Assembly: GCA_021732845.1 (NCBI GenBank)
Contig: JAKFUF010000012.1
Span: forward strand, 1 to 64,000
Source: Planctomycetaceae bacterium
GTDB lineage: Bacteria; Planctomycetota; Planctomycetia; Planctomycetales; Planctomycetaceae
Direction: 5' to 3'
Length of the DNA stretch: 64,000 bases
Made by a program: the position numbers and the translations under genes. Numbering within the stretch: the stretch's first letter is position 1; each line of letters opens with the position of its first letter. This document shows, in pieces, positions 58,498-61,099 of this stretch. Under the pieces are notes generated by a model. It did no database searches. It saw only the letters and a list, made by a program, of their open reading frames with translations, and was not told the origin of the DNA.

Positions 58498-59331
58498 CTA
58501 CTCAAACGCCACGACCCCCAGCTTCGCCAGTTCCCGGCAGAGTTCATCCAGTGCCGCGGGCGGGCTGTCCACGGTGTCGTCGGCGATGGCGCGGTGAGTG
58601 AACCATTCTTCCCGCGTGCAGGGTGCCCAGTCGGTCAGTTGGCGGATGACTGCGGCGGCATGTGGGGAGGGGACGGCGGAGCTGATTCCGCTGGCGACCG
58701 CGAAAAAGATCACATCGGCCGGAGCCCGCGCGGCACCGGCTAGCAGCGTGTTGGTCTCGAACCGAGTCCAGACGTGGATCGGGTTGACGCGGATGTTGAG
58801 TTCCGGATTCTCGCCGAACTCGGGAGCCAACTGCTCCACCAGGGTCCGCAGGTCCTGAAAGTGGATGTGGTCGACCCGATGGCGGCGGGCGCGGGCTTCC
58901 ACGGCGAAGCGGGCCTGCTGGCAGGCGACGTAGTCGCTTTGTTTGGGCTTGAGCGTCTTGTGATCAGTGAGCCACGTGAGGAAGTGGTCGGCGTCTTCCG
59001 AAGGCGATGCGAGAGCCCGGTAGGGCACATCGACCACATAGTGGCTCAACAGGTGCTCAAAGTCCTTGAAGGCTGGCTCGACAAATTCGAGCAGCTTCGC
59101 CAGCAGTTGGAACCGTTTCTCGGTGTTGCTGTCGATGAAGGACTCAATGGCGTCCAGGGTCGTGCCTTCGTCCACCACATTGGCCACGGCATCGGGATTG
59201 GCAGTGCTGAGGGCATGGGCGATACGGTTCAGTTCGTCGCGGTAGGCGATCAGCTCGGCCTGTTCGGCGGCGTTCTCCAGAACCACGGTTTCGTCCTGGT
59301 CTCGGAGCACAGTCTTTTTGCGAAGGCTCAT
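58498..59331 (-). CDS. MNIO partner protein of a RiPP pathway (BufC/HvfC/MbnC-like role)
   Basis: 277 residues, mostly helical, no signal peptide. Its start overlaps the MNIO stop by 4 bases (ATGA, 59328-59331), so the two are translationally coupled. In DUF692 pathways such a partner binds the precursor leader and stabilises the oxidase. Here the helical N-terminal half (AIESFIDSNTEKRFQLLAKLLEFVEPAFKDFEHLLSHY) and the ending ALDELCRELAKLGVVAFE suit that class. The assignment rests on position and architecture, not on a motif I can name with certainty. Confidence 0.65.
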   Translation of the reverse strand: MSLRKKTVLRDQDETVVLENAAEQAELIAYRDELNRIAHALSTANPDAVANVVDEGTTLDAIESFIDSNTEKRFQLLAKLLEFVEPAFKDFEHLLSHYVVDVPYRALASPSEDADHFLTWLTDHKTLKPKQSDYVACQQARFAVEARARRHRVDHIHFQDLRTLVEQLAPEFGENPELNIRVNPIHVWTRFETNTLLAGAARAPADVIFFAVASGISSAVPSPHAAAVIRQLTDWAPCTREEWFTHRAIADDTVDSPPAALDELCRELAKLGVVAFE

Positions 59332-60173
59332 GATTCAGCTCCCGACAGTGTGCCAGCGGAAACCGCTTCGGCGATCTCCCGGGCGTGCTGGACTTCACTC
59401 CGCCAGCCGTCTTCCGTCGGGAAATTGTCGTCGCGTTCAATAAACACGGCGTCGACCTTGCCATGCGCCAGTTCCAGGGCGAACCGGTACAAGTTCCACA
59501 CCTCATCCGGAATCGGTTCGGAGTGGCTGTCGATGTATGCGTTTGCTTCGTGATCGAAATAGCCGCCTGCCAGGTGCATCTGCATCCGTTCCGCGACGGG
59601 CACCACCTGGCGAATGAAGTCGTACGCGTCATACCCGTGGTTCTGGGCGTTGGCGTAGACGTTGGTGACATCAAGCAGCCAGCCACAGCCGGTGCGGCTC
59701 AAAACTTTGGACAGAAAATCCGCCTCGTTCATTTCGCCCTTGAAGCGAAACATGTAGGCGATGTTTTCGAGGTAGAACGGCAGACCATCGAAGAATTTCT
59801 GGACATGGTCGACGTTGCGGCAGACAGCACCCAGCGCCGCGAGGCTGAACGGCGGTGGGGCGAAGTGTCCCATCCCCACCTTGTGGACTGTGTCGCGTGT
59901 GAAACCCAGATGGTCGCTGACGGCGACGACACCGTTCTCCTCGACAATTTCCTGCATCGCTTCCAGGTACGAGCGTGGCACCAGGTCGGCGCTGGCGATC
60001 GACATCTCCAGCCCATGCAGGCTGACATAATCAAAGTCGCGCCAGCCGACAAAGCGGTCGATGCGCAGTGGCTCGTCCGCGTTCTCAAAGGTGATCTCGA
60101 CACCGTTGATCGCCGGATCGTCGAGGATCAACCGGTTTTCTTTGCGGATGCCGTAGCCGATGGCGGGAACCAT
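59328..60173 (-). CDS. DUF692 / MNIO family multinuclear non-haem iron oxidase
   Basis: 281 residues, the normal DUF692 length. Signature motifs with likely metal ligands are SLHGLEMSI (His53), SDHLGF (His88), LENIAYMF (Glu136, Asn137), LLDVTNVYANAQNHGYD (Asp168, His179), MHLAGGYFDHEANAYIDSHSEP (His200, His217), WNLYRF and FIERDDNFP (Glu246). Related enzymes (MbnB, TglH, BufB) use two or three irons and O2 to remodel Cys or Asp residues of peptides. The ATG at 60173 has CAGGG about 8 bases upstream; an extension to 60245 runs into the AT-rich element and is rejected. The Cys-rich precursor gene lies upstream on the same strand. Confidence 0.92.
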   Translation of the reverse strand: MVPAIGYGIRKENRLILDDPAINGVEITFENADEPLRIDRFVGWRDFDYVSLHGLEMSIASADLVPRSYLEAMQEIVEENGVVAVSDHLGFTRDTVHKVGMGHFAPPPFSLAALGAVCRNVDHVQKFFDGLPFYLENIAYMFRFKGEMNEADFLSKVLSRTGCGWLLDVTNVYANAQNHGYDAYDFIRQVVPVAERMQMHLAGGYFDHEANAYIDSHSEPIPDEVWNLYRFALELAHGKVDAVFIERDDNFPTEDGWRSEVQHAREIAEAVSAGTLSGAES

Positions 60174-60199
60174 GATTGTGCCCTGTGTTGCGTTGTTTT

Positions 60200-60410
60200 G
60201 ACGTGTCCGACAAGAGTGCATTCGCTGATCTTGATGCAATTTCAAATTTCAGATTTCAAATTTCACAGTAAAATACTTTTGCGCGACGTCGGGCCTTCCG
60301 GTCGAGGGTTATGTACTTCGCTGCGGAGGCGTGGCCGCTGGTTCGATTTAGTCGCACAGACTGTGAAATCTGAAATTTGAGATTTGAAATTAACTTTTGT
60401 CGGACACGTC
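60200..60410. mobile_element. MITE-like element, with AT-rich repeat copy B inside
   Basis: Perfect 14-base inverted termini GACGTGTCCGACAA (60200-60213) and TTGTCGGACACGTC (60397-60410) bound a 211-base segment. TGTTTTG lies immediately at both ends (60194-60200 and 60411-60417), as a possible 7-base target duplication that overlaps the left terminus by one base. Inside is copy B of the AT-rich inverted repeat (60238-60391), whose left arm matches 2933-2965. There is no transposase frame. It sits between the precursor gene and the MNIO gene. Confidence 0.6.
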
Positions 60411-60496
60411 TGTTTTGCGTTTTGACGGCCTAAATTGCCGGATCAATCGCGGAACGCCGAACGAACCCAGCGGTCGGTGTTTCGCGAGTGATCCGC

Positions 60497-60521
60497 ACGC
60501 GGGGGCGGCTGGCCCCCGCGT
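60497..60521 (-). terminator. Hairpin directly after the RiPP precursor
   Basis: A perfect 10-bp stem ACGCGGGGGC (60497-60506) pairs with GCCCCCGCGT (60512-60521) across a 5-base loop, 11 bases beyond the precursor stop on the minus strand. There is no T-run, so it may be a partial terminator or mRNA stabiliser that lets the peptide be made in excess of its enzymes. Confidence 0.6.
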
Positions 60522-60532
60522 CGGAGTCTGGA

Positions 60533-60673
60533 CTAGCAGCGGCAGCGGCGACAGCGCCGGCAACTGCGGCAACGACGGCAGCCGCGACAAAAACGCGAGA
60601 CCGCGGAGGCACTCGTCTTGAGAGCGGCAAGCTCCGTCACTTTCAGTTCCGTGTTCGTGACTTTGGTCTTCAT
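60533..60673 (-). CDS. Candidate Cys/Arg-rich RiPP precursor peptide
   Basis: 46 codons. Residues 1-28 are a charged, Ala/Thr/Lys-rich leader starting MKTKVTNTELKVTEL, with no secretion signal. Residues 29-46 are CRGCRRCRSCRRCRRCRC: seven cysteines at 29, 32, 35, 38, 41, 44 and 46, with nine arginines. The gene ends in TAG. GAGG lies about 8 bases before the ATG at 60673; the longer frame to 60772 has no such site. It lies upstream of the MNIO and partner genes on the same strand. It lacks the Sec signal seen in BufA-type precursors and does not resemble methanobactin precursors. I know of no named family with this core. Confidence 0.8.
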   Translation of the reverse strand: MKTKVTNTELKVTELAALKTSASAVSRFCRGCRRCRSCRRCRRCRC

Positions 60674-61099
60674 GATGGATCCTCTCTGGGAAGACTTTGA
60701 GCAGGCGAGCCACACGTGTTTCGAAGCCGATCTGTGGCTGCCGAGACATTGCCCAATATCAGCAGCCCGCATGCCAATCTGACTCGCAGTCGATCAATTC
60801 ATCTAAGTTGCCAATGTCAAGCAGTTTCCGGGCTTGGGCGCACCTCCAGCGGCGGTCGGGTGAAAACTCAGTCATCAAAGTTTGGACGGTGCGCCGTCGC
60901 TTTGATGGCACTGCATGCGCGTTGATGGGCCAGTGCAATTGCATTTTGTTTAGCCGCTGACGTGACACAGTCCACCCTTCCCTGCTCTGATACTCGTCCT
61001 GCCTCGACGGTCGGTGCGTGCATTCGTGCGGCTTTGGCAAATTGCCTGTACAATTCACACGCGGTTTCTCTCTTCAAACTCACACCTTCGGGTTGCTTC
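60674..61099. other. Intergenic region upstream of the RiPP operon and methyltransferase
   Basis: About 425 bases between divergent genes. The minus-strand promoter of the RiPP operon should lie here: a perfect -35 word TTGACA is present on the minus strand (60820 to 60815), but the best -10 at 16-18 bases is poor. On the plus strand the methyltransferase frame is open back to a GTG at 60962, so part of this interval could be coding. Confidence 0.5.

Follow-up and report, generated by a model that had tools for sequence, protein, structure and literature searches.

A stretch of 64,000 nucleotides from the genome of a Planctomycetaceae bacterium (GenBank assembly GCA_021732845.1, contig JAKFUF010000012.1, positions 1 to 64,000; hereafter the window) carries on its reverse strand a cassette encoding a short precursor peptide with a Cys/Arg core, a multinuclear nonheme iron oxidative enzyme (MNIO) and a partner protein. 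Comparison with related genomes suggests that the cassette represents a new family of MNIO-dependent ribosomally synthesized and post-translationally modified peptides (RiPPs), not a new principle, and that a fourth gene, encoding an ABC_membrane_3 protein, is inherited with it. This assignment draws on the cassette itself, the conservation of leader and core, selection on the coding frame, co-occurrence across genomes and the predicted folds of the proteins. The reading we favour, and consider reasonably probable, is a leader-guided system in which Cys residues would be oxidised, most likely to 5-thiooxazole, to yield a cationic soft-metal ligand handled by the membrane protein. The window holds the following features:

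60533–60673, reverse strand: precursor gene, 46 aa, leader plus Cys/Arg core, from its translation and a leader alignment with 25 relatives.
60590–60673, reverse strand: leader, 28 aa, MKTKVTNTELKVTELAALKTSASAVSRF; in the alignment VTELAALKT fits the family motif [VI]REL..LRT.
60536–60589, reverse strand: core, 18 aa, CRGCRRCRSCRRCRRCRC; seven Cys, six with Arg directly after, supported by a shuffle test.
60680–60687, reverse strand: probable ribosome binding site AGAGAGGA, directly 5' of the precursor ATG, from the upstream regions of 36 precursors.
59328–60173, reverse strand: MNIO, 281 aa (PF05114, E = 3.3e-57).
58498–59331, reverse strand: partner protein, 277 aa, with a predicted helical N-terminal domain and a predicted winged-helix C-terminal domain resembling a RiPP recognition element (RRE); PME-type 2 by predicted fold.
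59328–59331, reverse strand: ATGA, overlap of the MNIO stop and the partner start; a 4-nt overlap also occurs in loci L036, L039, L041 and L043.
60201–60409, no strand assigned: repeat resembling a miniature inverted-repeat transposable element (MITE), with inverted ends ACGTGTCCGACAA, between precursor and MNIO and not part of the system.

The initial annotation, made from the letters of the window alone, had described a 46-codon gene with its own ribosome binding site, encoding a 28-residue leader and a core with Cys at every third residue, followed on the same strand by an MNIO and a partner overlapping as ATGA; the translation, the AGAGAGGA before the ATG, the PF05114 match and the shared stop and start bear out this description. 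The boundary between leader and core is placed by the position of the first Cys. The window precursor matches no Pfam or NCBIfam profile. A run of at least five Cys at every third residue is seen a single time when all six frames of the window are read, and 100 dinucleotide shuffles produced no such run. AGGA, GGAG or GAGG lies within 20 nt before the ATG in 34 of 36 precursors, the window precursor among them.

The window MNIO has orthologues at 57–63% identity in 10 others of 59 related genomes (window genome counted), with two more distant relatives at 43 and 41%. A scan of genome contigs with the single window sequence returned nothing, and the 11-member alignment was needed as query; it recovered 43 loci in a collection of named genomes, 39 of them Planctomycetota at 56–67% identity, Gemmata sp. 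IIL30 (L062) included. These 39 and the window form the 40 clade loci discussed below, several of the named loci being the same contigs as genomes designated here by a G number. Outside this count stand the remaining four loci (L089–L092), from Verrucomicrobiota at 33–35% identity, the distant planctomycete MNIOs L044 and L045 (43 and 41% identity), with neither a partner match nor a recognisable precursor found close by, and G474 (L176), where the scan covered the membrane protein alone and gave no match. A tree of 47 rows, drawn without L068, whose precursor is identical to that of L065, leaves many forks open and separates the clade, window included, from two BufB-type MNIOs of the window genome (99/97 support). 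The window is the first branch of the clade, and its exact place is unsure because the tree leaves the following fork open (98/77).

Upstream of the MNIO, a short open reading frame (ORF) with a related leader, roughly [VI]REL..LRT, is present at 34 of the 40 clade loci. The R, E and second L of this motif are conserved in at least 90% of an alignment of 26 peptides. At four loci without a local precursor (L072, L078, L080 and L082) a copy lies elsewhere in the genome (G036, G462, G463 and G003), while one locus (L038/L063) carries three tandem copies. The initial annotation had proposed an MNIO-dependent RiPP system of its own kind, its precursor built of leader and core, and had named failure to find the short ORF conserved beside this MNIO clade as evidence against it; the 34 loci, 29 genomes with both genes and the co-occurrence of the two also when unlinked uphold the proposal. 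By eye, no hydrophobic stretch is apparent in the 26 aligned leaders.

The cores attached to this leader vary in size (approximately 7–42 residues) and in pattern. The commonest is RCCRCCRC(C)R, i.e., mostly (CCR)n, so that the (CRR)n core which had been taken as the hallmark of the system is true of the window and a minority form in the family, together with (CRS)n in L069, CRRG/CNRG in L062, (LERCGR)n in L084 and FCHGCHA in L050 and L053. Cys is shared by all the core types observed. In the tree, with many forks open, members with isolated Cys (the window, L062, L050 and L053) branch apart from most of the CCR group, within which L069 and L084 are placed. In the L084 peptide the family leader precedes seven LERCGR-like repeats, of which one has Ala in place of Cys; they are akin to the EGKCG repeats of oxazolins.

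Selection acts on the coding frame. Among seven close relatives of another genus the codon differences are mainly synonymous: between L074 and L079 the leader has 7 synonymous and 2 non-synonymous differences and the core 9 and 0, respectively, and pairs that include L067 or L071 show one or two non-synonymous changes in the core. Across 30 CCR cores, the Cys and Arg codons are variable. No Pfam or NCBIfam family covers the 26 precursors, for which the scattered matches were one to TIGR04114 (E = 0.99), two to DUF2477 (at best 0.0037) and one to DUF7919 (0.06). TIGR04117, a family of Cys-Xaa-Xaa-Xaa radical SAM targets, matched one of the 26 at 3e-05 and not the window precursor, and no radical SAM gene was searched for; TIGR04222 is absent from the matches listed at E up to 1.

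Whole-genome co-occurrence was assessed with strict limits that were set after seeing the tables (MNIO at 430 bits or more, membrane protein at 250 bits or more, precursor at E = 1e-10 or better). Across 170 family genomes, including that of the window, the strict MNIO occurs in 31 and the precursor in 31; both are present in 29, the MNIO only in 2, the precursor only in 2 and neither in 137. Counted by genus, the corresponding figures are 14, 2, 0 and 42. The two genomes with the MNIO only are the window genome, with a divergent precursor that escaped the profile, and G016, cut off by a contig end; the two with the precursor only are G496, on a 3,118-nt contig with the precursor near its end, and G495, in which the core Cys are lost. 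Most precursor-bearing genomes have one profile match. Three genomes with weaker precursor matches (E = 7e-4 to 7e-3) were kept outside the count, and the genomes below the limits are G026, G028 and G474 for the MNIO, G015, G338, G469, G470, G471 and G502 for the membrane protein, and G014, G432 and G509 for the precursor. Among 392 sampled genomes of the phylum, the strict MNIO is found in five and the precursor in four, all within those five, the fifth being the window genome; the distant MNIO of G028 in this sample is without a precursor. All of these counts are to be read with a profile that contains the same peptides, with scoring confined to a part of the first-look candidates, at most 41 per genome in the family scan and 17 in the phylum scan, and with genomes that share ancestry. 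A CCRCCRC DNA pattern matched 52 of the 392 phylum genomes and was not used alone as evidence because a reversed control pattern also matched many. The clade was not found on PLSDB plasmids, where the MNIO query matched 353 records, every best place below 60% identity and the five listed at 36–38%.

The MNIO of the window scores 194.2 bits against PF05114, above the cut-off of 25. Its AlphaFold2 model (predicted local distance difference test, pLDDT, 87.3) aligned in VIA-align to TglH (Z 27.9), MbnB (Z 26.3) and 3bww (Z 25.1), the next TIM barrels following at 18.6; matches of the model to sugar epimerases were put aside as reflecting the general TIM-barrel fold. Ten residues are invariant in 11 clade members (H53, H88, E136, D168, N171, H200, D215, H217, E246 and D248), most of them within stretches aligned to 3bww, TglH or MbnB, and we take the invariant His, Asp, Asn and Glu residues to be iron ligands, with D248 the presumed catalytic Asp. 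Among the NCBIfam MNIO profiles, all below cut-off, the Cys-modifying BufB (163.5 of 310 bits) and HvfB (145 of 360) stand far above ApyH (63.6 of 400), ChrH (46 of 600) and MbnB (33.4 of 325), which we count in favour of Cys oxidation. The two other MNIOs of the window genome pass the BufB cut-off at 359.2 and 355.5 bits.

The residue after the catalytic Asp bears on substrate choice. In the available text of PMC13097082 this selectivity residue is Phe in Lys-Cys enzymes and Asp in Cys-Lys enzymes, modelled against the substrate Lys; by analogy, D248-D249 (ERDD) of the window enzyme would be the pair of catalytic Asp and selectivity residue. The position following the catalytic Asp is Gln in 36 of the 40 clade enzymes, Ala in L062 and L069, Glu in L085 and Asp in the window, and the fit of D249 to a Cys-Arg substrate is thus suggestive for the window enzyme only.

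At E up to 1, the sequence of the window partner matches nothing in Pfam, NCBIfam or the PDB, and none of 11 partners matches DUF2063 (PF09836) at that level. The AlphaFold2 model of the window partner (mean pLDDT 86.5) is helical in its N-terminal part and made of strands and helices in its C-terminal part. Foldseek placed TglI (8hci, 8hi7) and NGO1945 (3dee) at the top (E = 5.5e-4 to 7.1e-3), and VIA-align gave Z 13.4 for TglI (root-mean-square deviation 4.5 over 224) and 12.9 for NGO1945 (4.0 over 190), followed by NO66 and TbtB at 8.2, the RRE-bearing ThcOx and TbiB1 at 6 to 7 and MbnC at 5.0. The fold assignment is carried by all three top matches being MNIO partners. On its predicted model, the window partner would be a TglI/NGO1945-like RRE protein of PME-type 2, a class that the accessible part of PMC12452194 describes as having an NGO1945/TglI-like fold lacking the Pfam DUF2063 signature and a gene after the MNIO. 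A partner homologue follows the MNIO in 38 of the 39 named loci, and the partners diverge faster, with a mean pairwise identity in 11 genomes of 37% against 68% for the MNIOs. A mirror comparison of MNIO and partner was set aside, its identity correlation of 0.69 being no more than shared ancestry alone would give.

The fourth gene, missed in the gene set of the initial annotation, encodes a protein of approximately 305 aa that matches ABC_membrane_3 (PF13748, 5.4e-50), the transmembrane part of an ABC exporter only. It follows the partner in 24 of the 39 named loci, while several genomes have it on other contigs or at a distance of 16–18 kb. Counted with the 250-bit limit, it is present in 27 of 31 genomes with the MNIO and in 0 of 139 others. 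The absence of a transporter, as first described, is true only locally because the family has this co-inherited protein, whose gene lies on another contig of the window genome. A match of 126 residues at 56% identity in G502, below the 250-bit limit and in a genome without strict MNIO or precursor, is probably a true relative, and weaker relatives at L211–L214 have no adjoining MNIO. In the neighbourhoods of 37 loci, some of which share a genome, no family besides the MNIO, partner and membrane protein recurs in more than five loci; the rarer neighbours, judged by eye, are mostly one-genus synteny, sulfatases, DUF1501-like proteins and a histidine-kinase/response-regulator group at unlinked precursors. 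In the open-access literature on ABC_membrane_3, no paper on MNIOs was apparent from titles and the beginnings of abstracts.

The MITE-like end ACGTGTCCGACAA has 91 copies in the window genome, several as inverted pairs approximately 200 nt apart, and one copy directly precedes the unlinked membrane gene (contig 34). Such repeats may have helped to split the cassette in this genome.

Several known systems resemble the cassette. The captophorins, i.e., bufferins, oxazolins and fontiphorin (BufABC, HvfABC and FonABC), share the order of precursor, MNIO and partner, repeated Cys beside basic residues and a partner of two domains that include an RRE, predicted here; of the NCBIfam MNIO profiles, BufB and HvfB come nearest to the window enzyme, and the (LERCGR)n core of L084 recalls the EGKCG motif, whose Cys becomes a 5-thiooxazole according to the available text of PMC13097082. 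Unlike captophorins, the window system has no signal peptide evident by eye and no DUF2063 partner match, and no DoxX-like gene was recognised among the recurrent neighbours, on which no DoxX profile was run; the family instead has the ABC_membrane_3 gene, the [VI]REL..LRT leader and an MNIO below the BufB cut-off. Assignment to the bufferins or captophorins is consequently not supported. The window genome provides a useful internal contrast in a captophorin-like operon on contig 6 (L181, ~67 kb), which comprises a Cys-rich precursor that BufA2 matches weakly (28.7 of 60 bits), a BufB-class MNIO, a DUF2063 partner and DoxX; a third MNIO, also above the BufB cut-off, lies on contig 199.

The pearlin (3-thiaglutamate) system, TglA-TglHI, resembles the cassette in a leader with no evident signal peptide and in having the closest folds (TglH, Z 27.9; TglI, Z 13.4), but the present cores encode many Cys in repeats, whereas pearlin has one C-terminal Cys added by a tRNA-dependent ligase; no gene save the membrane protein is widely recurrent near the cassette, where no ligase profile was run. 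Methanobactin (MbnA-MbnBC) is alike in a precursor with no evident signal peptide, the MNIO fold (Z 26.3 to MbnB) and Cys oxidation, which is proposed for the window system, and unlike in the MbnB profile score (33.4 of 325 bits) and in the partner (Z 13.4 to TglI versus 5.0 to MbnC). The adjamnio families, in the portion of PMC12452194 available, combine Cys-containing precursors lacking a signal peptide with an MNIO and a PME-type 2 partner, as the present cassette appears to do. They differ in stated features, adjamnio-I having 122–293 residues with 8–21 Cys and adjamnio-7 a CxxC motif; the family is set apart by these features only, and overlap with an adjamnio entry is possible. The same portion of that paper models a TIGR04222 protein of the planctomycete Pirellula staleyi, and PMC12636315, likewise available in part, reports that one small cluster of the ChrH subfamily includes Planctomycetota. 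The open-access matches listed contain no description of the precursor core strings or of a planctomycete precursor family.

We infer leader binding, Cys oxidation, ring type, metal binding and the role of the membrane protein from these resemblances. A short, presumably cytosolic precursor, with a conserved leader and a variable, Cys-repeated and mostly Arg-rich core, would be held through its leader by the RRE-like domain of the partner, which would thereby deliver the core to the MNIO. With iron and O2, the enzyme would oxidise one Cys after another, the most likely product being 5-thiooxazole with a loss of 4 H per Cys, at up to seven Cys per window peptide. This ring is favoured because the nearest MNIO families form it, because Cys is common to all cores and because (LERCGR)n resembles EGKCG. 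The resulting cationic array of soft sulfur ligands could bind Cu(I) or a similar metal, and the co-inherited ABC-exporter-like membrane protein, which lacks an ATPase of its own, might move, anchor or sense the product.

A bolder extension, which we regard as doubtful, is that one leader type and one RRE-MNIO pair tolerate Cys periods of 3, 4 or 6, so that new arrays of oxidised Cys would arise by core replacement. If both Cys of each pair were modified, the dominant (CCR)n cores would become directly linked thiooxazole pairs between Arg residues, a cationic heterocycle ribbon associated with an ATPase-less membrane domain of the ABC-exporter type. Such a ribbon is absent from the captophorins as described in the available text of PMC13097082.

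A number of observations weigh against the favoured reading. The window enzyme misses every NCBIfam MNIO cut-off, and the ring type could therefore differ. Enzymes with CRRG (L062) and CRS (L069) cores have Ala after the catalytic Asp and one CCR enzyme has Glu; the C-R cores of L062 and L069 argue against contact between Asp and a basic residue as a general rule. The partner Z of approximately 13 is near the level at which the tool warns that helical models may reach it by arrangement alone. At L083 the contig ends 147 nt upstream of the MNIO and at L075 the partner is also absent, and the best precursor matches elsewhere (E = 0.14 and 0.99, respectively) are unconvincing. The window leader, VTELAALKT, is divergent, with Thr where the motif has Arg, and the profile built from these peptides failed to recover the window precursor from its own genome, in which candidates were partly scored. 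The membrane gene was not found after the MNIO in 15 of the 39 named loci, four of which extend approximately 1 kb or less beyond it; in the window genome (G000) it is unlinked, on contig 34, at 54% identity. No ATPase or protease was recognised by eye among the recurrent neighbours.

The best placed of the alternatives, which we judge unlikely if plausible, keeps the MNIO-RiPP and changes the chemistry at Cys to an oxazolone-thioamide, carbon excision, a thioaminal or a macrocycle, with a signal, an antimicrobial or another non-metal agent as product. MNIO reactions on Cys are diverse (PMC12636315 and PMC12452194, in the parts available), the partner fold is closest to TglI of the carbon-excising TglHI, and in three genomes of genus g4 the unlinked precursor lies near a gene for a GAF-type histidine kinase. 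The highest-scoring profiles, BufB and HvfB, point away from it, and cores with many evenly repeated Cys would seem closer to arrays of metal ligands than to the substrates of TglH or ChrH, which are modified at a single site. These three loci (L160, L161 and L162) carry related kinase genes; a response-regulator gene follows the kinase in L161 and L162, that of L162, the sole pair scanned with Pfam, being of SpoIIE type, and in L160 a Fic-domain ORF lies between. This arrangement hints at a link with signalling.

It is improbable that the MNIO acts on Arg or another residue and leaves the Cys as free thiols in a metallothionein-like ligand whose Arg are modified. Most cores have many Arg, and some MNIOs act on Asp, Asn, Phe or homocitrulline (the available text of PMC12636315 and PMC13174530), but the FCHGCHA core of L050 and L053 has no Arg between Cys, L084 carries LERCGR and Cys is the common denominator. 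Less probable still is a protamine-like Arg/Cys peptide that binds nucleic acid, modified or not, with the MNIO tuning its cross-linking. The CCR cores resemble protamines in Arg/Cys composition and no signal peptide is evident by eye, but a core of only about 7–42 residues, the single profile match in most precursor-bearing genomes, the co-inherited membrane protein and the members that by eye are not strongly cationic (L050, L053 and L084) argue otherwise. A chance low-complexity, GC-rich ORF beside an unrelated MNIO, to which the repetitive core DNA and the window copy missed by the profile might point, is already contradicted by the leader conserved in 26 aligned peptides, the predominance of synonymous change, the whole-genome co-occurrence and the shuffle test.

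Further peptides were observed alongside the family. In G495, a precursor-like ORF (L165:8818-8949, forward strand) has its core Cys replaced (RCDRCCRCSRCW) in a genome without a strict MNIO or membrane-gene match and is probably a decaying orphan. A peptide ending in GGHGGHHCHHCHRCHRCHNCHHCHHCFF (P0004; L047:5538-5933, reverse strand) was found in 1 of the 170 family genomes, its own. Its gene precedes another MNIO (L047:2169-3302) by approximately 2 kb, and the peptide may be a counterpart of the Cys-repeat core that uses His instead. At L092, from Opitutia of the Verrucomicrobiota, the MNIO has upstream of it several ORFs whose tails are rich in Gly and Cys, possibly TIGR04222-like substrates.

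New peptide chemistry is coming from MNIO enzymes at a fast-growing rate, and among their Cys-repeat substrates the exported bufferin and oxazolin types are the best characterised. If the favoured reading is true, the Planctomycetota would hold a separate family with its own leader, partner type and membrane component. The natural swapping of cores makes substrate rules directly testable within one enzyme clade, and the family is approachable in a named strain because Gemmata sp. IIL30 carries the cassette. Should the CCR cores be fully modified, their products would be compact polycationic ligands built of sulfur heterocycles.

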